Positions 3,608 to 45,358 of a stretch of DNA of 55,083 nucleotides are shown one piece after another (positions within the stretch are counted from its first letter, which is position 1; each line of letters begins with the position of its first letter). The notes below the pieces were generated by a model. The model saw only the letters and a program-made list of their open reading frames with translations. It did not search any database and was not told the origin of the DNA. The DNA is from a virus: IMG/VR virus record IMGVR_UViG_3300023284_000540, positions 1 through 55,083 of that record. One strand, given 5' to 3'. A program made the position numbers and the translations under genes.

Positions 3608-3792
3608 GTGTTCATCATTAGTGAGATGCCTAATGGGTATCCTGGCATGTCTTCAATAGAGCCGAAACCCCCACCTGTAGGATAACTCCCATCTCTGGTC
3701 AATGTTACTGCACAGGCTGATGATTCAAGCATATCTTTAACCATTTTAAGTATCTGATCCTTCTCAAACTGTGTCATCTCAAACTGTGTCAT
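3571..3792 (-). CDS. Small hypothetical protein
   Basis: 73 residues from the ATG at 3792, which overlaps the stop of the UDG-exonuclease gene as ATGA behind a G-rich site. A short direct repeat (MTQFEMTQFE) opens the protein. Its 3' end overlaps the next gene by 37 nt. No family recognised. Confidence 0.6.
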   Translation of the reverse strand: MTQFEMTQFEKDQILKMVKDMLESSACAVTLTRDGSYPTGGGFGSIEDMPGYPLGISLMMNTCDTTKTPSHDG

Positions 3793-5153
3793 GTATCCCC
3801 CCATCTCTCTTGCGGAACCTTCCTTACCTTGGATATCATTCTCTTGAGTAAAGGATACAACCTCAATGTAGAGTCAGAGTCACGGCAGGCGTAGTTGATA
3901 ACCTTGTCGAATGGTACATGGGTTATACACTTGCCAGGATATAGCCCGGCCACTTCCTCTATTGAATCATGCTGCATCTCCCAGTTACCCCAGGATTTGA
4001 ATACATCCTTTTCAGGGTTGTTATCGTAGTCAGTAAAGAATCTTTTTAACTTAGTCTTCATAGACTGAGGTCTGTACGACTTCCACTTCCCTTGTTCATC
4101 TCTTACTAGCTCTTCATCAGGTCTAGGCCAGTCCAATCTATAGGCATCCCTGAAGTACTCCAGGACCTTGGGCAATGAGTAAGGAGTAACTAGGTCGTCA
4201 AAGTCCAGCATGTCCATCCCTAACTCTCTGTAAGCTAAGGCTTTAAGCCCCTGTGGCAGGTTGCCTAGATGGTAGGCCATGACCATAGTATCGACTACTT
4301 TTTTGTGACGAATGTGGAGTCCCATTTTAGAAATAGGAAAGTAGTCATACATCCAATTATGGAATATTATGGGACCCTCCCATTTATTCAAGGAGTCCTG
4401 GAATGCGGCTAGAAGATCAGGTCTGTTGGAGCGTATCAGCCTACCCTCACCTGGATGGTTGGAAAAGGTCAGGCAAAATGGTTCTCTCTTTCTAGTGCTC
4501 TCAGTATCTATAGATAAAGGTTTGTCATACTCCATGAAGAAAGTACCTAGCTCTACCTGATCTTTAATCTCTGAGTAGTCAGGTTCAGGGTATTCGTCCT
4601 GCGGCACTGCTAGCCTATCAGTCAAGAATCTCTTGAGCCTGTACCAGTCTGTCCTGATCTGTAACATCTTCTTGGGCTCATGAATGCCTCTCGCCGGATG
4701 GTACATAGGGAATAGCCAGCCAAATGCCGAGCGCCGTGGTATGCCGTGATGCAGGTCTAAATCTATACTCGGATCAATGGCCCTGCAAGCGAATGCTCCC
4801 ATAGGAATAACAAGCCTATGATCCCTTTCTAGTTCTTTGCTGAGGTGGAATTGAGAGCAGGACTCTAGCAATTCTATGTCCCTCGGCTTACCAGAATCTA
4901 GCTTACCTCCGCGTCCAGGAGGGAGGCATCTAATGGCATTATCGAACCGGCAGTTGGCTCTGCGTAGTCCAGCCAAAGGGAGATAGTGGGCGTTCACTTC
5001 CCATCCTGTCTTGCCAGTAAATGGATGACCGCTCCTATCCTCATCCTTGCCAGGACCCTCTCCAAGGAACAATAAGTCACTATCTTCCGGCCCATCTGGG
5101 GGAACAACGTTATTGATTCCGGGACACTCAGGGCACCGCTCTATTAAAGACAT
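3789..5153 (-). CDS. Uracil-DNA glycosylase fused to the 3'-5' exonuclease domain of a split family A DNA polymerase
   Basis: 454 residues with two domains. Residues 1-160 match a family 4-type uracil-DNA glycosylase: LFLGEGPGKDED motif at about 28-39, YHPA at 151-154, and four Cys (7, 10, 76, 99) at the positions expected to hold a [4Fe-4S] cluster. Residues about 205-450 are a DnaQ-like 3'-5' exonuclease: LSIDTEST (Asp216, Glu218), FHNWMYD (Asp270) and YACRDSD (Asp425). The polymerase domain is encoded separately at 929-2323. The arrangement suggests that uracil removal and proofreading work on the same polymerase complex. It starts inside the 3' end of the upstream gene (5128-5319). Confidence 0.9.
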   Translation of the reverse strand: MSLIERCPECPGINNVVPPDGPEDSDLLFLGEGPGKDEDRSGHPFTGKTGWEVNAHYLPLAGLRRANCRFDNAIRCLPPGRGGKLDSGKPRDIELLESCSQFHLSKELERDHRLVIPMGAFACRAIDPSIDLDLHHGIPRRSAFGWLFPMYHPARGIHEPKKMLQIRTDWYRLKRFLTDRLAVPQDEYPEPDYSEIKDQVELGTFFMEYDKPLSIDTESTRKREPFCLTFSNHPGEGRLIRSNRPDLLAAFQDSLNKWEGPIIFHNWMYDYFPISKMGLHIRHKKVVDTMVMAYHLGNLPQGLKALAYRELGMDMLDFDDLVTPYSLPKVLEYFRDAYRLDWPRPDEELVRDEQGKWKSYRPQSMKTKLKRFFTDYDNNPEKDVFKSWGNWEMQHDSIEEVAGLYPGKCITHVPFDKVINYACRDSDSTLRLYPLLKRMISKVRKVPQERWGDT

Positions 5154-5777: not shown

Positions 5778-5998
5778 TTTGTCTCCTTATCCCTTTCCCC
5801 CCACACAGATATTGACCCATCGCAGTGGCCAGCATCTTCATTGGAATATTCAAATCTCCATTGTGATTTGCGCTTACCGTCCTCTAATGGAAAGTGGTCC
5901 ATGCCAAAAATGTCACCTATGCCCCCTAGCAAGTTCTGTAGAGCAACAGCCATATCCTTAGTCGTAATACTAACCTCAATTCTCATCCATATCTTCAT
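5774..5998 (-). CDS. Small hypothetical protein
   Basis: 74 residues from the ATG at 5998, which overlaps the stop of the ERCC4-type nuclease (ATGA); an earlier in-frame ATG at 6064 is inside that gene. Begins MKIWMRIEVSITTKD, resembling the start of the next gene. No family recognised. Confidence 0.65.
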   Translation of the reverse strand: MKIWMRIEVSITTKDMAVALQNLLGGIGDIFGMDHFPLEDGKRKSQWRFEYSNEDAGHCDGSISVWGERDKETK

Positions 5999-6774
5999 TT
6001 GCTGTTTATCTCCTTCACGATATTCTGGGCCGTCTTGACTCCTATTCCTGGCACCCTCAACCAATCTAACTCATCTGCTTGCGCCAAACTGCTGGCCTTC
6101 TTGAATAGTCTCTCAGCATCTATGCTGTGCTTGACACCCACTCCTGTCAGCTGAGCCGCCCATCTCCTGACTAGACTAGGCTTGCCTCTCATGTCAGGTA
6201 TAGCTAACTTCTGTGTTTCCAACAAGCTAGTATGATTTTCCCACTTCTTCTGGAAGTAGTGATAGCAGTTGCAGATGTTAACTGCTGTATGCTCCAGAGT
6301 CATACTATATGTAATGATTACACCTGAAAGTGATACGCTGAGGAGGTAGCGATAGAGCTTGGAGTACATAACTCTCTGGCTACGATAAACTAGGGGGAAC
6401 CAGCCAGCACCTTTGTTGGTTATTAGCAGACCCTCCCAATTAGGGCCGGAGCCAGCGGCCCAGACACCCTCTATGACTAGGAGACTCTTGTCATACATAT
6501 TCATCATACCTGGCCTCTGGTGAGCAACGTAACGGGCATCGTCAATGCAGTTGAGCATGTCATGTATAGTCTTGCGCTCTATTCCTATAGAAATAATACC
6601 TTTAGGTCCCTTGCCTTCGAAACATACATCACCGAACTCTAGCTGTGTTAGCTCAGCATGGACGCCTAGTCTTTTGATTGGGGGGAGCAGTTCCGCGCTA
6701 CCCACGCGAGAATCGATGAAGATCATTTGCCGGATTGCCTCCATGCGAATCCCTTCTTTGTCAGCAGCCACCAC
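5995..6774 (-). CDS. ERCC4-type (XPF/Mus81-like) nuclease with helix-hairpin-helix domain
   Basis: 259 residues. An ERCC4 nuclease core is shown by IERKTIHDML (the ERKxxxD signature) after an acidic GDV segment; the C-terminus carries a helix-hairpin-helix, VPGIGVKTAQNIVKEI, for DNA binding. Such phage enzymes cut branched or flapped DNA during replication and recombination. The start shown is a GTG with AAGGAG five bases upstream; an ATG at 6744 is an alternative. Operator-like site 3 is embedded in frame (GVIITY) in the second half. Confidence 0.9.
   Translation of the reverse strand: MVAADKEGIRMEAIRQMIFIDSRVGSAELLPPIKRLGVHAELTQLEFGDVCFEGKGPKGIISIGIERKTIHDMLNCIDDARYVAHQRPGMMNMYDKSLLVIEGVWAAGSGPNWEGLLITNKGAGWFPLVYRSQRVMYSKLYRYLLSVSLSGVIITYSMTLEHTAVNICNCYHYFQKKWENHTSLLETQKLAIPDMRGKPSLVRRWAAQLTGVGVKHSIDAERLFKKASSLAQADELDWLRVPGIGVKTAQNIVKEINSK
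6310..6322. promoter_or_regulatory. Palindromic operator-like site 3
   Basis: TGTAATGATTACA, exact. Inside the ERCC4-type nuclease gene, read in frame as VIIT. Confidence 0.9.
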
Positions 6775-8321: not shown

Positions 8322-8594
8322 TTATCTATTATTCCTTCCCTGTGGCGTTTGCTTATGCAATCTCTTCTTCATTGAAGATAACTCGCTGCCAATTTTCCAT
8401 ATCAGGGTCAACTTTGCCAGTTCCTCTTTCTTCAATCTATCTATGTCGTTCCTTAATCTGGTATTGACACTGGTCAGCACCTCTATGCTGATTGTCACCA
8501 ACACCAGACACAGAACAAGTGACCAATGATAGTAACTAGCTATAATAAGTAGTAACACCCCAGTCAGGGATAACCGAACGAGCCATACAATCAT
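8322..8594 (-). CDS. Small membrane protein with coiled coil
   Basis: 90 residues. Two adjacent hydrophobic segments (about 1-22 and 25-42, WLVRLSLTGVLLLIIASYY and LVLCLVLVTISIEVLT) are followed by a charged helical region (NDIDRLKKEELAKL) and a basic tail. Probably an inner-membrane hairpin; role unknown. Its ATG overlaps the upstream nuclease stop. Confidence 0.7.
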   Translation of the reverse strand: MIVWLVRLSLTGVLLLIIASYYHWSLVLCLVLVTISIEVLTSVNTRLRNDIDRLKKEELAKLTLIWKIGSELSSMKKRLHKQTPQGRNNR

Positions 8595-9220
8595 TTCCCC
8601 TCCTTCTGATCTCTGTGCTCTGTCAGCAGCGCCCAGTTGTCATCTATCTCCTTCTGGGTGAACTCAATAGCCCAGCAACGTAGCTGGGGTCTTATCGGAT
8701 ATGAATAATCTCCACACAGAAATAATATGTGCATCCTTGCCCACCTGGTATTCTTACCCTTACAGTATGCTTTAACCTGGGACATCCACATCCATTCATT
8801 ACTCAGGTCTCCTACGGTCTTGGTACTTTTGTATGTGACCTTACACTCGTGGACAATGAGGGTATGGTTCCTGTACTTGCCCTGAGAACGTGTAATGATT
8901 ACATCCACAGACTCTCCATCTGGGGTCATATAAACCCCGTCAACTTGAATTTGACCAGGATGATCTACGACACCCAGCTCACCCAGGAAGGTAGGGATAT
9001 AGTATTCCTCCCAAGCCAGACCTATATTCATCCTGAGTACAGCCACGGGATCAGTTACTTGCCTCCCATCTACCAGAGACAACTCCTCTGCCCATTCAGG
9101 CTTCAGGATGCCTACCTCTGTGGCTATAGACCTGATAATATTGGAGATATGCACTCCCTCCGATCTGGGTACCCTAGACTTTGGCAGGGTCAGATTCACC
9201 GGGATTTCATTGACTATCAT
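8591..9220 (-). CDS. PD-(D/E)XK family nuclease
   Basis: 209 residues. QIQVDGVY / ESVDVIITRS then HECKVTYKS, with a downstream QVKAYC, is the pattern of RecB/Cas4-like PD-(D/E)XK nucleases (Asp, then Glu-x-Lys, then Gln). Likely acts in DNA recombination or end processing with the Sak4-like ATPase next door. Operator-like site 4 encodes the VIIT strand right before the catalytic region. Confidence 0.75.
   Translation of the reverse strand: MIVNEIPVNLTLPKSRVPRSEGVHISNIIRSIATEVGILKPEWAEELSLVDGRQVTDPVAVLRMNIGLAWEEYYIPTFLGELGVVDHPGQIQVDGVYMTPDGESVDVIITRSQGKYRNHTLIVHECKVTYKSTKTVGDLSNEWMWMSQVKAYCKGKNTRWARMHILFLCGDYSYPIRPQLRCWAIEFTQKEIDDNWALLTEHRDQKEGK
8891..8903. promoter_or_regulatory. Palindromic operator-like site 4
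   Basis: TGTAATGATTACA, exact. Inside the PD-(D/E)XK nuclease gene, read in frame as VIIT. Confidence 0.9.
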
Positions 9221-9226
9221 TTGTCT

Positions 9227-9454
9227 TTATCTGCTCCGCTCATTGGCGGCGCGAAGGGCTTCTCTGCTTTCCCCCCGCATGGGACGTGCCTTAATAATCT
9301 CTTCTATATCCGCCCGCAGATTGGTGAGCTTCTCTTCCAGATCGCGCGTCTTCATATCGACTTGTTGGTACACCTCTAAATCAAATCGCTGCTCCAACTC
9401 CGTGATGCGCTTGCGTAACAAATCTGTCCCAGAGTGGTTAGTTATTTCCGTCAC
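9227..9454 (-). CDS. Small coiled-coil protein
   Basis: 75 residues, almost entirely heptad-like helix (LLRKRITELEQRFDLEVYQ..., EEKLTNLRADIEEI). Starts by ATGA overlap with the upstream gene. Function unknown. Confidence 0.65.
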   Translation of the reverse strand: MTEITNHSGTDLLRKRITELEQRFDLEVYQQVDMKTRDLEEKLTNLRADIEEIIKARPMRGESREALRAANERSR

Positions 9455-9681
9455 ACAAATTTCTCCGTTTCCGTTAAGATGGCTTGGACTTGATCCTCCA
9501 ATTTAGATGGGCCGCCTGGATATTGTTGGCCCAATCTCTCCAATAACAGGTGCGTCTGAGAGAGCAACACCCGCAATCGTCGGATCGCTTCCAGAGCATC
9601 CGGGTAGAGGCAGGCATGGCTATCGACACCATAAACACGCTCCCCGCAAACATATTCCTTACACCCACAGTGTTCGCTCAT
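9451..9681 (-). CDS. Small Cys-rich hypothetical protein
   Basis: 76 residues with an N-terminal Cys cluster (MSEHCGCKEYVCGERV, plus a Cys near residue 24) that could bind a metal, followed by a helical C-terminal half (LEAIRRLRVLLSQTHLLLERL). GAGGAAGCC precedes the ATG. Family not recognised. Confidence 0.65.
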   Translation of the reverse strand: MSEHCGCKEYVCGERVYGVDSHACLYPDALEAIRRLRVLLSQTHLLLERLGQQYPGGPSKLEDQVQAILTETEKFV

Positions 9682-9693
9682 GGCTTCCTCATT

Positions 9694-10026
9694 TTAAATT
9701 TTCCAGATGGGTAAACATAATATTTGATCCGCCCTAAGCCCTCGCACACCCTCAACCTCAATTCTCTCCTGAGATTCCCCGTCAATTTGCTTGCTGATGT
9801 AGAGGACCAAGCCACTTTCCGTTTCTTTGCCAAGCACCGTCAGAAGGAGGTCCTTCTTTCCTTTAGCGGAGATGCGTTTTATTTCTGTATCTTTAGACAG
9901 CCCCAACACAAGTAGAGCCATCACAACCTCCTTTCCATCTACTTCTCCTTTGTTCAATCGAATGAAAGCCTGTCCTGTAATATCTGATTTGCCCTCTTCA
10001 CAAATAAGCATATCTAGCGTGTCCAT
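9694..10026 (-). CDS. Hypothetical protein
   Basis: 110 residues from the ATG at 10026, chosen because a near-perfect GGAGGTGAT lies upstream; an ATG at 10047 is an alternative. Beta-rich composition (GLVLYISKQI, RIEVEGVRGL). It directly follows the structured RNA on the same strand. No family recognised. Confidence 0.65.
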   Translation of the reverse strand: MDTLDMLICEEGKSDITGQAFIRLNKGEVDGKEVVMALLVLGLSKDTEIKRISAKGKKDLLLTVLGKETESGLVLYISKQIDGESQERIEVEGVRGLRADQILCLPIWKI

Positions 10027-10070
10027 AGCTATATCACCTCCAACCATGACTTCCTCGACTTCCTCATTTC

Positions 10071-10557
10071 AAAAAGTGGCTGCTGGTCGGACTTGAAACC
10101 GGCTTTCTGGCTATCTGTAGGCTTATTGGCCTGAGTTCACCCCGCCCAGATCGCGGGTAACGCTTCTTGGTGTTTAGTCGGAACCACGGGCGCGACCCGT
10201 CTATTTCCGCACCGTCCCTCACCTACAGCATGTAGCATGTCCCTTCCACGCTGCAGCAGCCTCTCAGCAGGCCGTACTCCCACCCCCTATGGAAATTGGA
10301 GGCGATGTTGTTTCCGGCCTGCCAAGCTCATTGCCAGTGACCCGCATGACGTTGCTTGTGTTTGAAGGCGCATATTATAGGCGTCTCCGCACACAGGGCC
10401 TTGGCCGATTCCACCAAGGAAGGCCACTGGCAATCTTTAGGGGCCACGCATCGCTTGCCTGTGATCCGGCTTCCGGCTTGAGGGGCTACCCCAAGTTGCC
10501 TATCTCGTGCGGCCTCAGCGTCGCGTGCGATGCACCGTCCTCTCGGACTATGGCCCC
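10071..10557 (-). ncRNA. Large, multi-domain structured RNA candidate (about 490 nt)
   Basis: No convincing reading frame fills 10048-10560, but the minus-strand sequence folds into four end-to-end domains, each closed by a perfect long-range helix. A: 10551-10557 with 10440-10446 (7 bp), plus an inner 10527-10533/10448-10454 helix and a GUCC-GAGA-GGAC hairpin (GNRA loop) at 10537-10548. B: 10425-10434 with 10330-10339 (10 bp), inner hairpin 10399-10419. C: 10315-10322 with 10267-10274 (8 bp). D: 10254-10261 with 10078-10085 (8 bp), inner hairpins 10223-10235, 10186-10200, 10141-10157. A run of five U follows the last helix. Size, complexity and phage location recall the GOLLD and ROOL class of ornate large RNAs; I cannot assign it to either. 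It sits between two protein genes of the same operon. Confidence 0.8.
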
Positions 10558-10560
10558 GTC

Positions 10561-11508
10561 TCAATCTCCAGGCACTATCCTGCCGGAATCAGACAGAGAG
10601 AACCCTATCTCACCAAGCAGTCCAGACAAATCATCATCCGTCGTGAAGTACGAATCAATAACTGCCTGAGCCATCTCGGTTCCATCTGCATCATTGACAG
10701 CTTTGAAGACTCCTGTCTTGAGTATCAATTTGGCGCAACCTTTAGGACTCTTGGCTAGAACAACGGATGCCCCACTCTTGGCAGATTCAAGAATGGCTTC
10801 ATCCCCTGCCAACTCATCAGGCGCGGGCTGTGGAGCTGCTTTGGCTCTCGATAGCGCGGCAGTCCTACTTGCCGTCACACCTGTTGATCTGGTGGAAGCC
10901 TTGGGGGGTGACCCGCCTGGTATCCCTCCACCTTCTTCCCAAGGCTTACCATCTTCCTTTATCTCTGAAACCACGGCTATGGTCCCTGGCCTGCGGATTT
11001 CAGCAGCAGCCTCACCCGTTTGCGCCGATGAAGCAAACCCTTTCCTTTCTTCAGGTTCCGGCACATTTGATATATGGACCCAGGTGCCTTCCAAAACGGA
11101 AATGTCATTCGTGAATATCCCCTTCGGTAACCCACAATCGGTCAGGGATTTAAGGAAGTACATCCAATTAGTCTGGTTGCTGAGAGTCATGCCCAAACCA
11201 CCAGGGATAGCAACGATACCCTTACCATTCTCAGGGTTCGGTGTAAATGACTTGTGAGCACTGGTCCCCATCGAATAGAACTGTTTCCTTTCCTTCTCAT
11301 CAAGATCAGTGAGAGATTGAAATGTAATCATTACACCAAGCCTGGACGGTCCCTTGAGTTCCCCCCTCTCGTTCTGTGCCTGGTACATCTCAACACCTAA
11401 CTCCATCATGCAATAGTCACCCTCTGGTAGACCACCACCAGCGACATACATATCAGTGTCGCCAAAGTTCACTGTGTCTACTACAGCCTTCCTCCTTTGT
11501 AATGCCAT
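10561..11508 (-). CDS. Conserved phage replication-module protein of unknown function
   Basis: 315 residues. Ordered N-terminal domain (about 1-165: VVDTVNFGDTDMYVAGGGLP, then FYSMGTSAHKSFTPNPENG, GLPKGIFTNDISVLEGTWVH), a Pro/Ser/Ala-rich linker (about 185-235) and a C-terminal helical domain ending in an acidic stretch. I recall similar proteins near Sak4-like ATPases and helicases in other phages; a single-strand DNA-binding role would fit position but is inference. Operator-like site 5 encodes LGVMITF in frame. The stop lies four bases before the structured RNA. Confidence 0.75.
   Translation of the reverse strand: MALQRRKAVVDTVNFGDTDMYVAGGGLPEGDYCMMELGVEMYQAQNERGELKGPSRLGVMITFQSLTDLDEKERKQFYSMGTSAHKSFTPNPENGKGIVAIPGGLGMTLSNQTNWMYFLKSLTDCGLPKGIFTNDISVLEGTWVHISNVPEPEERKGFASSAQTGEAAAEIRRPGTIAVVSEIKEDGKPWEEGGGIPGGSPPKASTRSTGVTASRTAALSRAKAAPQPAPDELAGDEAILESAKSGASVVLAKSPKGCAKLILKTGVFKAVNDADGTEMAQAVIDSYFTTDDDLSGLLGEIGFSLSDSGRIVPGD
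11323..11335. promoter_or_regulatory. Palindromic operator-like site 5
   Basis: TGTAATCATTACA, exact. Inside the gene at 10561-11508, read in frame as VMIT. Confidence 0.9.
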
Positions 11509-11718: not shown

Positions 11719-11894
11719 TGAGATAACTTTGTTTCACCTTTCGCAGCTTCCTTTTCCATTAAATCCTTGTCAAAGTTGTCATGCAGCTCACCAAAAAGAG
11801 CCCTCCATACCTCTGATCCTGTAGTGTTTTCAGCTATTTTAATGAGGTAAGTAAGAATATCTATCTTGGCTTTGAGTTCAGCAATGTTGTTCAT
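11715..11894 (-). CDS. Small helical hypothetical protein
   Basis: 59 residues (MNNIAELKAKIDILTYLIK... ending ETKLSQ). The ATG at 11894 overlaps the helicase stop and its own stop overlaps the next start, both as ATGA, so three genes are coupled. Largely helical, charged. Function unknown. Confidence 0.65.
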   Translation of the reverse strand: MNNIAELKAKIDILTYLIKIAENTTGSEVWRALFGELHDNFDKDLMEKEAAKGETKLSQ

Positions 11895-13459
11895 AGTTTC
11901 CTTAACGGTTGTGGCATGTTGTCCAGCATACGAAAGAACTTATGAAACGACCTTGGCGCAAGATGCCCATAGCGTGGCAGGAACCAATCCATATGACTAT
12001 CCACCATGATACTCTCACACATATCATCCCTGCTTCGCATACCTCTGCCGAATGCCTGAACCATATATTGCATAGCCAGGTAAGGCCCATACTCATTATC
12101 ATCTGATTGTCTCGCCTTGATGATCTTAGCCCTGCCATCAGGGAACGGAATCTTACACATAAACTGCCACTCACAGGTATCCATAGGAAAGTCGTAACCA
12201 GTGCCTACAGAAGGGCTTACGAGAGTAGTGCCTGGGGGGGAATCCTTGAATTTCCTAATAGTATCACTCATGGACCTTCCTCTCTGGTTTAGTATCATAG
12301 AGCTGGCGTATCTGCTGGATTCCAAGACCTCCTGCTGGCGGGCATAGCTGATAGTGTGGATGATGCCTTTTCTATCTCTCCGCCTGGCCATGAACTGATC
12401 TAGCCTGACCCACAGTGGTCTCAAATCTCTGGTTCGTGCATCCACCCGCACAGGAGGATTGGCAGGAACATAGTAAATAGGACAACGATCAGGATCAAAT
12501 CCGCTTGGAAACTCCTTGAAATCAGAGTCCTTCTGGGTTACACCTATCATGTAAAGTGTTTTGGGTCTTAGGGTTGCGCTAACTACAACGATCTTAGGCA
12601 TCTTCAAGAGCAGGGCCGCCTCTGCATACTGCGTCGGTCGGATAGGATCGAACTGATATCCTCCATCAATCTCATCCACTATCCAATTATTAGCCGTGCA
12701 TGTGGCCAGTATGGTCAACCTTGCGCAAAGCAGTCTCATATGGCTGAGATGTTTTACTAGACTTAGTGGAGGATCAGGGGAATACTTTATCTTCTTCGCG
12801 GATTCAACTCTTTCTTCCTCGGCTATGTACCGAACACGATCAGACCAGTGCTTCCACTCATTCATATTACTTCTGAACCTATCAGCAGGAAATGGAACCT
12901 TTAAGGTTTCCTCAATTTCCTTATGATTAAGGACTACTTGCATAGCTCTAGCTAAAGCGTCAGGGGCATCATGTCCTTCATCAAAGATAACCTGCTGGAA
13001 ATGCTCCATGCCCAGACCATATCTGCGGCAAGATGTCCATTTGTCGTAGTTTGTGACCACCAGCTTAGACGCTGCGGCTCTCATTTGAGCTTTGCTATAC
13101 GGACAGAGGACGGTCCCCTGAGATTCACACCGGGAAATATGACCGTCTTCGCAACTATAGCTCGGCCTAAGTTCACAGTTATAGTTATTGCGGCCTCTGA
13201 TGTCCACCAGACCTATACTGCTATAGTCTTGGATCAATTGATCTTGTAGACCTTTGGAGCTGGTGACGATACAGGTAGGTAACTTACTTAGTAAGGCGGC
13301 GGCCACATAAGCGGGAGATTTGCCAAATCCGGTAGGGGCTGACAGGGCTATCACTCTCTTCTGAGATGTAATCATTACATCCACGGCCTCCTCCTGACCG
13401 GTTCGCCAGCTATCAAACTTCTCAGGCAGGCCGCATTCGTGTGGGGCGGGTGTTTTCAT
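11891..13459 (-). CDS. XPD/DinG-like superfamily 2 helicase with putative iron-sulphur cluster
   Basis: 522 residues. Walker A APTGFGKS at 41-48, DEGH box at 160-163, a motif III-like VVSATLRP, and C-terminal helicase motifs ending QAFGRGMRSRDD. Four Cys (95, 103, 111, 119) sit between motif I and DEGH at the place where XPD/DinG helicases hold a 4Fe-4S cluster, implying a 5'-3' DNA helicase. It probably unwinds DNA in replication or repair together with the ERCC4-type nuclease and UDG of the same strand. Operator-like site 6 encodes VDVMIT at the N-terminus. No clear ribosome binding site is seen before the ATG. Confidence 0.9.
   Translation of the reverse strand: MKTPAPHECGLPEKFDSWRTGQEEAVDVMITSQKRVIALSAPTGFGKSPAYVAAALLSKLPTCIVTSSKGLQDQLIQDYSSIGLVDIRGRNNYNCELRPSYSCEDGHISRCESQGTVLCPYSKAQMRAAASKLVVTNYDKWTSCRRYGLGMEHFQQVIFDEGHDAPDALARAMQVVLNHKEIEETLKVPFPADRFRSNMNEWKHWSDRVRYIAEEERVESAKKIKYSPDPPLSLVKHLSHMRLLCARLTILATCTANNWIVDEIDGGYQFDPIRPTQYAEAALLLKMPKIVVVSATLRPKTLYMIGVTQKDSDFKEFPSGFDPDRCPIYYVPANPPVRVDARTRDLRPLWVRLDQFMARRRDRKGIIHTISYARQQEVLESSRYASSMILNQRGRSMSDTIRKFKDSPPGTTLVSPSVGTGYDFPMDTCEWQFMCKIPFPDGRAKIIKARQSDDNEYGPYLAMQYMVQAFGRGMRSRDDMCESIMVDSHMDWFLPRYGHLAPRSFHKFFRMLDNMPQPLRKL
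13367..13379. promoter_or_regulatory. Palindromic operator-like site 6
   Basis: TGTAATCATTACA, exact. Inside the helicase gene near its 5' end, read in frame as VMIT. Confidence 0.9.
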
Positions 13460-35052: not shown

Positions 35053-36264
35053 TTACGAGAGTGAACTGTCAGACGACACTGCCATCTTCACATCCCCTTG
35101 GGATGCTCCAAAGATGTGACGGAGCTTGTAGTCAATCGCATCCGTATCGAAGTCACCCTCGGTGGGATCAACCGCCCCACCACCCAATTGCCTCTGGTCA
35201 GAATCCTTCACGAACAACTGCGGGTCTCTCCGGCCACGAAGGAATCCGAAGTGGAAAGCGGGCCGCTGTGTCGCATCATTCGGGTCAGCAATCAGGAACC
35301 AGGGGTCCGTGGACAGGGAGGTTGCAATGATCTCGATATAGGGATTCACAACCAAGGTCAATTTGGATTTCATCCAGTTAGCAACCTGAAGGAACTGCTC
35401 AGTGGTACCCCCACCCGTGGGTCCACGAATTTCGAGGGTCAGAGCATTGAGGATATTCTGGGCAGTGACAGACAGATTGGGGCTGACCACAAGAGTCACA
35501 GCATCGATCAGGATAGGCTCACTATCCTCATCCAATTGAGCCGCAAGGACTTTGAAGGCCGTCTGCAAGCCAAGGATAGTCAGGGCGGGATTGGCAGTAA
35601 CGATGTTTTTGTTGCCAGCCGTGAAGAACGAGGCATGGGGACCGTTCGCATCCACCAACTGCTGAGTGGCCAGTTTCTCCTCTGACCTCCGAGCAGCTAC
35701 GGCCATCATCTGCGGCCTGTTCTTGAAAGCATTCAGGTCATCGTTAATCAGCATCTCAAAGGAGATGCCATAACGCTGACCATACTTCTCCACGAGGAGG
35801 GTTTTCTTACCTTCCTTGAAAGCGAACTCTTTGTAGGGTTCCCTCTCAGCCACTTTAGGCAGCTGCCCCTGACCCCCATCAATGGTGTACATGTTCATGG
35901 TCCTGAAATCCTTCAGATCATGCACCCTCATCCATTTCTGGTAGCTCACAGGCCACGCCCGATAGTTGCCAAGTAGCTGACGATAAAGCAGATCGCCAAA
36001 CAGATCGGGGAAATCAGCTATGGTCATGGCTTCCTGCAAGTGGTAAGATGGTCTACTACCATCCATTACCCCTGCGAACAAATCAGCACACTCGGCCACG
36101 GCTGCCTTCCACCTGGGATCATTGCGCCGACGGATCAGCCTTTCTCCGCTGGTCAGTCTATAGGAGGGATCAAACCCCTCCTTACGAGGGTCAAACACGG
36201 TCAGAGACTCCTTAACTGCTGTAGCCTCAGCCGCAATCTTCTTCAACTTAGCTGCAATACTCAT
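35053..36264 (-). CDS. Major capsid protein, HK97-fold type
   Basis: 403 residues. The FGDLLYRQLLGNYRAWPVSY, VHDLKDFRTMNMYTIDG, YGISFEMLINDDLNAFKNRP and VVNPYIEII / DPWFLIADPND patterns match capsid proteins of the Mu T/HK97 group. Follows protease-scaffold and a DUF2190-like gene. GGAGGACC precedes the ATG and operator-like site 15 lies 30 bp upstream. Confidence 0.9.
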   Translation of the reverse strand: MSIAAKLKKIAAEATAVKESLTVFDPRKEGFDPSYRLTSGERLIRRRNDPRWKAAVAECADLFAGVMDGSRPSYHLQEAMTIADFPDLFGDLLYRQLLGNYRAWPVSYQKWMRVHDLKDFRTMNMYTIDGGQGQLPKVAEREPYKEFAFKEGKKTLLVEKYGQRYGISFEMLINDDLNAFKNRPQMMAVAARRSEEKLATQQLVDANGPHASFFTAGNKNIVTANPALTILGLQTAFKVLAAQLDEDSEPILIDAVTLVVSPNLSVTAQNILNALTLEIRGPTGGGTTEQFLQVANWMKSKLTLVVNPYIEIIATSLSTDPWFLIADPNDATQRPAFHFGFLRGRRDPQLFVKDSDQRQLGGGAVDPTEGDFDTDAIDYKLRHIFGASQGDVKMAVSSDSSLS

Positions 36265-44488: not shown

Positions 44489-44639
44489 AATCACTCCACG
44501 AGACTCGACTTTTGCATTTATTGCACACGCCCACGTTGGCATTCCATGTAGGGCATACTTCCCCAGTGCATCCCTTCTTCAAACAGGGTTTGGGCTTATC
44601 ATTATAGCCCTTCAAGGTAAAAGCACTCTCTGTAGCCAT
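44478..44639 (-). CDS. Small zinc-ribbon protein, first gene of the virion operon
   Basis: 53 residues from the ATG at 44639, which has a strong GGAGGAGG site; an earlier ATG lies within operator-like site 20 and is unlikely. PCLKKGCTGEVC and CNKCKSRV are zinc-binding Cys pairs. As first gene after the leftward promoter it could be a regulator or terminase partner. Confidence 0.7.
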   Translation of the reverse strand: MATESAFTLKGYNDKPKPCLKKGCTGEVCPTWNANVGVCNKCKSRVSWSDYEE

Positions 44640-44667
44640 AGACCCCCCTCCTCCGCTATCCCCCAAA

Positions 44668-44697
44668 AGTGTAATCATTACATATTCCCCCTGTCAA
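44668..44697 (-). promoter_or_regulatory. Leftward promoter of the virion operon, with operator over the -10
   Basis: On the minus strand TTGACA at 44692-44697, an 18-bp spacer and TACACT at 44668-44673. Site 20 (44670-44682) covers part of the -10 and spacer, so a bound regulator would block RNA polymerase. Confidence 0.75.
44670..44682. promoter_or_regulatory. Palindromic operator-like site 20 (in the divergent control region)
   Basis: TGTAATCATTACA, exact. Overlaps the leftward promoter and lies about 30 bp from the -35 of the rightward promoter. Confidence 0.95.
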
Positions 44698-44711
44698 CCC
44701 CGAAATTAAAC

Positions 44712-44740
44712 TTGACATACATCCTTATTATCGTTATTTT
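44712..44740 (+). promoter_or_regulatory. Rightward promoter for the HTH repressor candidate (leaderless)
   Basis: TTGACA at 44712-44717, 17-bp spacer, TATTTT at 44735-44740. The ATG begins seven bases after the -10, so transcription should begin at or next to the start codon, as with lambda cI from PRM. Confidence 0.8.
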
Positions 44741-44746
44741 AGCTCC

Positions 44747-45358
44747 ATGAACGGCTCAAATGGCCAAAATAGTGAAAATAGAGAGGTTATACGTTGCAAA
44801 AAGTGCAATTTGAACCAATTTATCACTATAAGTAGTCTCTGCCGCCGTTGCAGATACTCACTATCCCCTGTAAAAGAAATACCTGAGAAAACCCCCCAAG
44901 AAGCTATACCAAAGCCTATCCCCCTCCGATCACACTTCTTCCCGGAGCCGGGATCAAGGCCATTCTGTCCTAAGCCCCCTAACTTCGGCTCCGTTCTAAG
45001 AGCACTCCGGGAAGATATCGGCTACAATCAAGTCCAGATGTCCCACATTATGGGCATCAAGCGCCCTTACTTGAACAGGGTAGAGGGCGGGTTCATCAAC
45101 CCTGGTCCCTCTACCCTAACTAGGCTGTGTAGCGCCCTTCGCACTACTCTGTCCGATCTACTTTACTGCTATCAAAACTGGCCAGGCTCCTCTAAATCGG
45201 CTCAATTCCACGCTCAGACTTTGCAGATATTGGGCACATTTCGGGATTTGGGTACAGATCAGAAGCAGCGGGTCTTGCGTATGGTCAAAGATGCTCTCAA
45301 CTCGCCGCAGGAATCACCTAGAGTACTAGAAGAATCTATACCGTCTGGGGACAACTAG
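44747..45358 (+). CDS. XRE-type repressor candidate with N-terminal Cys motif
   Basis: 203 residues. The N-terminus has two CxxC pairs (IRCKKCNLNQ, LCRRCRYSL) forming a probable zinc ribbon; residues about 83-145 are a Cro/C1-type helix-turn-helix (LRALREDIGYNQVQMSHIM, KRPYLNRVEGGFINPGPSTL, LCSALRTTLSDLL); the C-terminus is helical (LGTFRDLGTDQKQRVLRMVK). Divergent from the virion operon, leaderless and next to operator site 20. Good candidate for the immunity repressor. The DNA-binding target is inference. Confidence 0.85.
   Translation: MNGSNGQNSENREVIRCKKCNLNQFITISSLCRRCRYSLSPVKEIPEKTPQEAIPKPIPLRSHFFPEPGSRPFCPKPPNFGSVLRALREDIGYNQVQMSHIMGIKRPYLNRVEGGFINPGPSTLTRLCSALRTTLSDLLYCYQNWPGSSKSAQFHAQTLQILGTFRDLGTDQKQRVLRMVKDALNSPQESPRVLEESIPSGDN

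Follow-up and report, generated by a model that had tools for sequence, protein, structure and literature searches.

A 487-nt stretch of the minus strand of a phage genome may well encode a new large phage RNA; the candidate, strong but still unproven, matches no known family, and no relative of it was found. The window analysed here is a viral record of 55,083 bases, the genes of which lie mainly on the minus strand up to ~44.6 kb, and the candidate sits in a protein-free gap of its replication gene cluster (Table 1). That this gap holds a large, multi-domain RNA is a prediction supported by folding statistics together with the lack of a coding signal. The reading that we favour, at roughly even odds (a probability of about 0.5), is that the segment specifies a lineage-specific structured non-coding RNA of ~290-490 nt that is co-transcribed with its neighbours, released, and acts as RNA. 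Phage RNAs that are both large and highly structured fall into very few known classes.

Table 1. Genes of the cluster, the RNA candidate, its predicted domains and the perfect helices within it (window coordinates)
Feature	Position	Strand	Description
Family A DNA polymerase domain gene	929-2323	minus	
Uracil-DNA-glycosylase + 3'-5' exonuclease protein gene	3789-5153	minus	
ERCC4-domain protein gene	5995-6774		in the cluster around the RNA candidate
Nuclease-like gene	8591-9220	minus	conserved; 44-64% identity in relatives
117-aa ORF	9694-10047	minus	directly downstream of the RNA candidate
Candidate structured non-coding RNA	10071..10557	minus	four domains, then short U-tract CACUUUUUG; from folding and shuffles, without coding signal
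Domain 1 (predicted)	10440..10557	minus	closing helix GGGGCCAU/GUGGCCCC (8 bp)
Domain 2 (predicted)	10330..10434	minus	14-bp closing helix AUUGCCAGUGGCCU/GGGUCACUGGCAAU around hairpin arms
Domain 3 (predicted)	10263..10326	minus	12-bp closing helix CUUGGCAGGCCG/CGGCCUGCUGAG and inner 8-bp hairpin
Domain 4 (predicted, conditional)	10078..10261	minus	7-8-bp closing helix GGCUGCU(G)/(C)AGCAGCC around several short helices
Perfect helix, 7 bp	10533/10448	minus	GCATCGC/GCGATGC
Perfect helix, 10 bp	10434/10330	minus	ATTGCCAGTG/CACTGGCAAT
Perfect helix, 8 bp	10322/10267	minus	GCAGGCCG/CGGCCTGC
Perfect helix, 8 bp	10261/10078	minus	GGCTGCTG/CAGCAGCC
315-aa protein gene	10561-11508	minus	conserved, directly upstream; ~30-54% identity in related phage loci
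Helicase gene	11891-13459		in the cluster around the RNA candidate

An earlier note on this DNA described four adjacent domains closed by perfect helices of 7, 10, 8 and 8 bp, and all four helices are exactly present on the minus strand, which is the coding strand. No dinucleotide shuffle out of 400 attained their combined 33 bp, although elsewhere in the contig 32 bp is attained twice. The energy-model fold of the minus strand comprises four adjacent domains with closing helices of 8, 14, 12 and 7 bp (mean pair probability 0.95-0.99), which are separated by linkers of 5, 3 and 1 nt and, extending over 10078-10557, cover 97% of the segment 10071-10557. The GNRA and other tight hairpins reported inside the domains are likewise found in the fold, as a GAGA hairpin and AAG and CGC triloops. 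At least three domains of this kind occurred in 0/400 dinucleotide shuffles and in 0/113 other minus-strand windows of the contig, a statistic that is strong but not independent, since the measure was devised after the fold had been seen and other windows reach lower z-scores. Over the full length the folding z-score is -2.8 on the minus strand versus -0.9 on the plus strand, and several other windows of the contig have an overall folding z equal to or below that of the candidate. Two further regions, 35398-36000 and 44632-45144, stand out by unusually low folding z on both strands, down to -4.6.

Because of their z-scores and their behaviour with added flanks, domains 1-3 are solid predictions and domain 4 is a conditional one. 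The pair probabilities of the first three stay at or above 0.90 with flanks of up to 300 nt. Domain 1 is predicted to enclose the GNRA hairpin GUCC-GAGA-GGAC, the 7-bp helix GCAUCGC/GCGAUGC and the further hairpins CUUGGGG/CCUCAAG and CCGG/CCGG; its closing probability is 0.97, or 0.95 with 300-nt flanks, and its z is -2.1. Irrespective of context, domain 2 retains a probability of 0.97-0.98 (z -4.7) and domain 3 one of 0.90-1.00, the latter with a z of -4.2 on the minus versus -1.4 on the plus strand. Domain 4 is weak by itself (z -1.4), and its closing probability drops from 0.95 alone to 0.16 with 50-nt flanks and stays low with longer ones. The four-domain architecture put forward earlier thus holds for domains 1-3, but its last member is lost with at least 50 nt of flank; domain 4 would need some condition in order to close, of which cleavage close to its 3' end is one example.

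The strand on which the structure forms bears on whether RNA or DNA is the active molecule. Replication genes would be a natural setting for an element that works at the DNA level, as double- or single-stranded DNA, for instance a replication origin or a protein-binding region with inverted repeats; the segment does contain a 13-nt inverted repeat (spacing 79 nt), and some of the helices also form on the plus strand. The coding strand folds better, however, most clearly in domains 2 and 3, and a search of the region for iteron-like direct repeats found none, and we regard a DNA-level role as highly improbable.

The statement that the region holds no good protein gene was borne out by codon scoring and by six-frame family searches. 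Between the 315-aa gene and the 117-aa ORF lie 513 non-coding nucleotides, the longest gap in the closely packed leftward arm (the next measures 213 nt, for a gene set picked by hand). The three minus frames of the gap score about -0.17 to -0.20 bits per codon, under every gene scored, the comparison genes of up to ~700 nt ranging from -0.13 to 0.36. Unlike in most neighbouring genes, the GC content by codon position is flat, and overall it amounts to 0.59 versus 0.44-0.51 in the neighbours. Read-through translations of all six frames had no match in Pfam or PHROGs, and the one translated gap frame tried against phage records matched nothing there. A conserved protein encoded across the region, which the earlier note had named as one of two observations that would speak against an RNA, was looked for in six frames and none was found. 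A 78-aa ORF at 10328-10564, with a TTG start and overlapping the upstream stop codon, was rejected as a gene; it scores under all genes scored and does not have the normal codon-position GC pattern.

The description of the surroundings as a replication operon is fair because polymerase, uracil-DNA glycosylase/exonuclease, ERCC4-domain and helicase genes all occur in the cluster. The family A DNA polymerase is split, its polymerase domain forming a gene of its own while a second gene ~1.4 kb away joins its 3'-5' exonuclease domain to a uracil-DNA glycosylase domain. The 315-aa protein has no Pfam or PHROG match and is conserved in related phages; the nuclease-like gene shows a weak similarity to RE_XamI, under the cut-off; and a search for relatives of the 117-aa ORF found none. 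Just upstream of this ORF and of a 76-aa ORF lies a 15-nt direct repeat (9684-9698 and 10059-10073, 14/15 identical) that contains the ribosome-binding-site-like motif GAGGAAG. Elsewhere in the window, the terminase is closest to those of Streptomyces and Thermobifida phages (43%) and the portal to that of a Methanoculleus virus (37%).

The immediate junction with the upstream gene is where the main rival explanation comes in. Domain 1 begins ~4 nt past the stop codon that ends the 315-aa gene, and the segment shares the strand of the genes, an arrangement that would suit an element acting in cis between two cistrons of the replication mRNA; its stable domains would halt 3' exonucleases, lend stability to the message upstream of them and either uncouple the genes downstream or dampen them. 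The same interpretation could account for the negative outcome of the search for a promoter or terminator belonging to the RNA itself, for the ability of sequence 3' of domain 4 to pair with the leader of the downstream ORF, and for the disturbance of domain 4 by downstream sequence. One stable hairpin would nevertheless be enough for such a role, for which a multi-domain structure of 490 nt is unusually large, and the junction in the relatives examined lacks any such element; a cis-acting function of this kind seems to us somewhat unlikely, if a serious contender.

Protein searches identified related phages in which helicase, 315-aa gene, nuclease-like gene and P-loop ATPase come in the same order, at ~30-64% identity. 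Between their 315-aa and nuclease-like genes there is either nothing or some other small ORFs, but no such RNA candidate, and in ~33 related phage records the same position was usually taken by other small genes or by nothing. The longer gaps among them mostly contain small ORFs and none has a similar architecture; one 246-nt gap, in L037, is free of ORFs of at least 40 aa. Blastn with the candidate returned no homologue in phage and plasmid records and no convincing one in the related phage records plus one metagenome-assembled genome (MAG), where a 29-nt match (E 0.007) was set aside. Three domain covariance models, each built from one sequence and liable to miss strongly diverged homologues, found none anywhere in the 33 records, nor was a homologue found in 380 genomes of the phylum of the MAG that holds one related contig. 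Two DNA patterns, which could detect near-identical motifs only, were scanned against viral contigs; the 80 loci retrieved for the first were chance matches, and the second had no match. The collections searched may omit close relatives, and because of this, of the one-sequence models and of the strict patterns, the missing homologues say as much about the limits of the search as about the RNA itself. Since a covariation test depends on homologues, structure and function are predictions.

The interval between the 315-aa and nuclease-like genes (9227-10560 in the window, with equivalents in L021, L030, L037, L072 and L078) is a variable slot whose small ORFs differ between related phages. In the related record L034 (7636-9714) it spans ~2 kb and contains, among others, a 460-aa ORF that shows a weak similarity to beta-helices; the 315-aa homologue of that record aligns over residues 13-196 only. 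The helicase ORF of the related phage L004 (2320-4752) is continuous (810 aa) and its halves are ~290 aa apart beside a DEAH-type motif; the insert is probably an intein, judging from a similarity to an intein-splicing domain (E 1.8e-6, under the Pfam cut-off). Another related contig, L044 (JAGWWT010000009.1), is binned in a Patescibacteria MAG, which reflects either the host or a binning error.

Such variability invites the explanation that the segment is passenger DNA: GC-rich material, either newly acquired or decaying, that sits at a variable insertion site and owes its strong folding partly to chance. The differing contents of this interval among relatives, the lack of homologues and conservation, and a GC content unlike that of the neighbouring genes would all agree with it. 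Dinucleotide-preserving shuffles, which keep the GC content as well, never gave the architecture, however, and the signal of a decayed protein is absent from all six frames; we consider passenger DNA unlikely.

If the segment does encode a free structured RNA, it would be co-transcribed with the replication and recombination genes of the leftward arm and would begin immediately past the 315-aa stop codon, and domains 1-3 would, as the predictions support, fold locally during synthesis. Near the U-tract at 10071-10077 the RNA would then probably be cut from the downstream mRNA or end ahead of it, so that domain 4 could close. Once freed, the stable RNA would act as itself and not as a message, for instance as a scaffold or decoy for host RNA-binding factors. 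Four high-probability domains, the stability of the first three, the bias to the coding strand, the length of the gap and its distinct GC content speak for this reading of a released RNA; the lack of homologues and covariation, the instability of domain 4 in context and the low z-scores elsewhere in the contig speak against it, as does a search for promoter-like or terminator-like sites on the candidate's strand that found none. A more specific proposal, that a new class of large phage RNAs, multi-domain and particle-forming or scaffold-like, is seen here for the first time in the variable slot of the replication cluster, is possible but tentative.

A comparison with known RNA families gave no assignment. 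No Rfam family reached its gathering score in the window and no sensible match was obtained at E<=10 in 9950-10650, GOLLD, ROOL and OLE included; weak matches with E of 0.4-6 are far under the curated scores and look like chance. This agrees with the earlier note, which had proposed the covariance-model search and saw no feature of a known class. Group I and group II introns were discarded (the Rfam intron models were unmatched and the upstream 315-aa gene is complete in alignment to its relatives), and a circularly permuted group I intron, considered for a short GACUA/UAGUC complementarity, was dropped for want of any core. The suggestion of a tRNA-like end found no support. Like the ends of tmRNA and tRNA-like RNAs, the candidate has a sequence resembling a T-arm, GGUUUCAAGUCC, beside an 8-bp helix, but its T-stem needs a C.A mismatch and an 8-nt loop, the best fold does not form a T-arm there and pairs its GUCC with GGAC at 10217-10214, and ARAGORN predicted no tRNA or tmRNA in the 55-kb contig.

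GOLLD, ROOL and OLE all form RNA-only complexes (PMC12286853). The first two are phage RNAs, often near tRNA islands, that assemble into RNA-only cages larger than the ribosome, with functions still open (PMC12286853). The likeness to GOLLD and ROOL drawn earlier holds for size and setting but not for family, as neither model matched at E<=10 and the contig has no tRNA; the missing Rfam match and tRNAs likewise argue against membership in any of the three families, though the candidate may work in a similar way. Members of GOLLD are often longer than 800 nt and share a 3' region that is universally conserved (PMC12286853); as a large ornate phage RNA GOLLD resembles the candidate, but the latter is only ~490 nt long. 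OLE is similarly large, structured and rich in domains, but it is a bacterial RNA and the candidate lies in a phage. ROOL is a large multi-domain phage non-coding RNA of unknown function (PMC12286853), a description that the candidate shares on the strength of its predicted fold; in contrast to ROOL, it shows no loop-loop complementarity of at least 5 nt within its four domains, and it is co-oriented within a replication cluster. Its 487-nt sequence is short enough for direct in vitro testing. If the prediction is correct, it would be an orphan RNA of GOLLD/ROOL-like scale that resides in a replication cluster instead of beside tRNAs, which would point to more RNAs of this kind than the conserved examples that comparative searches have brought to light.
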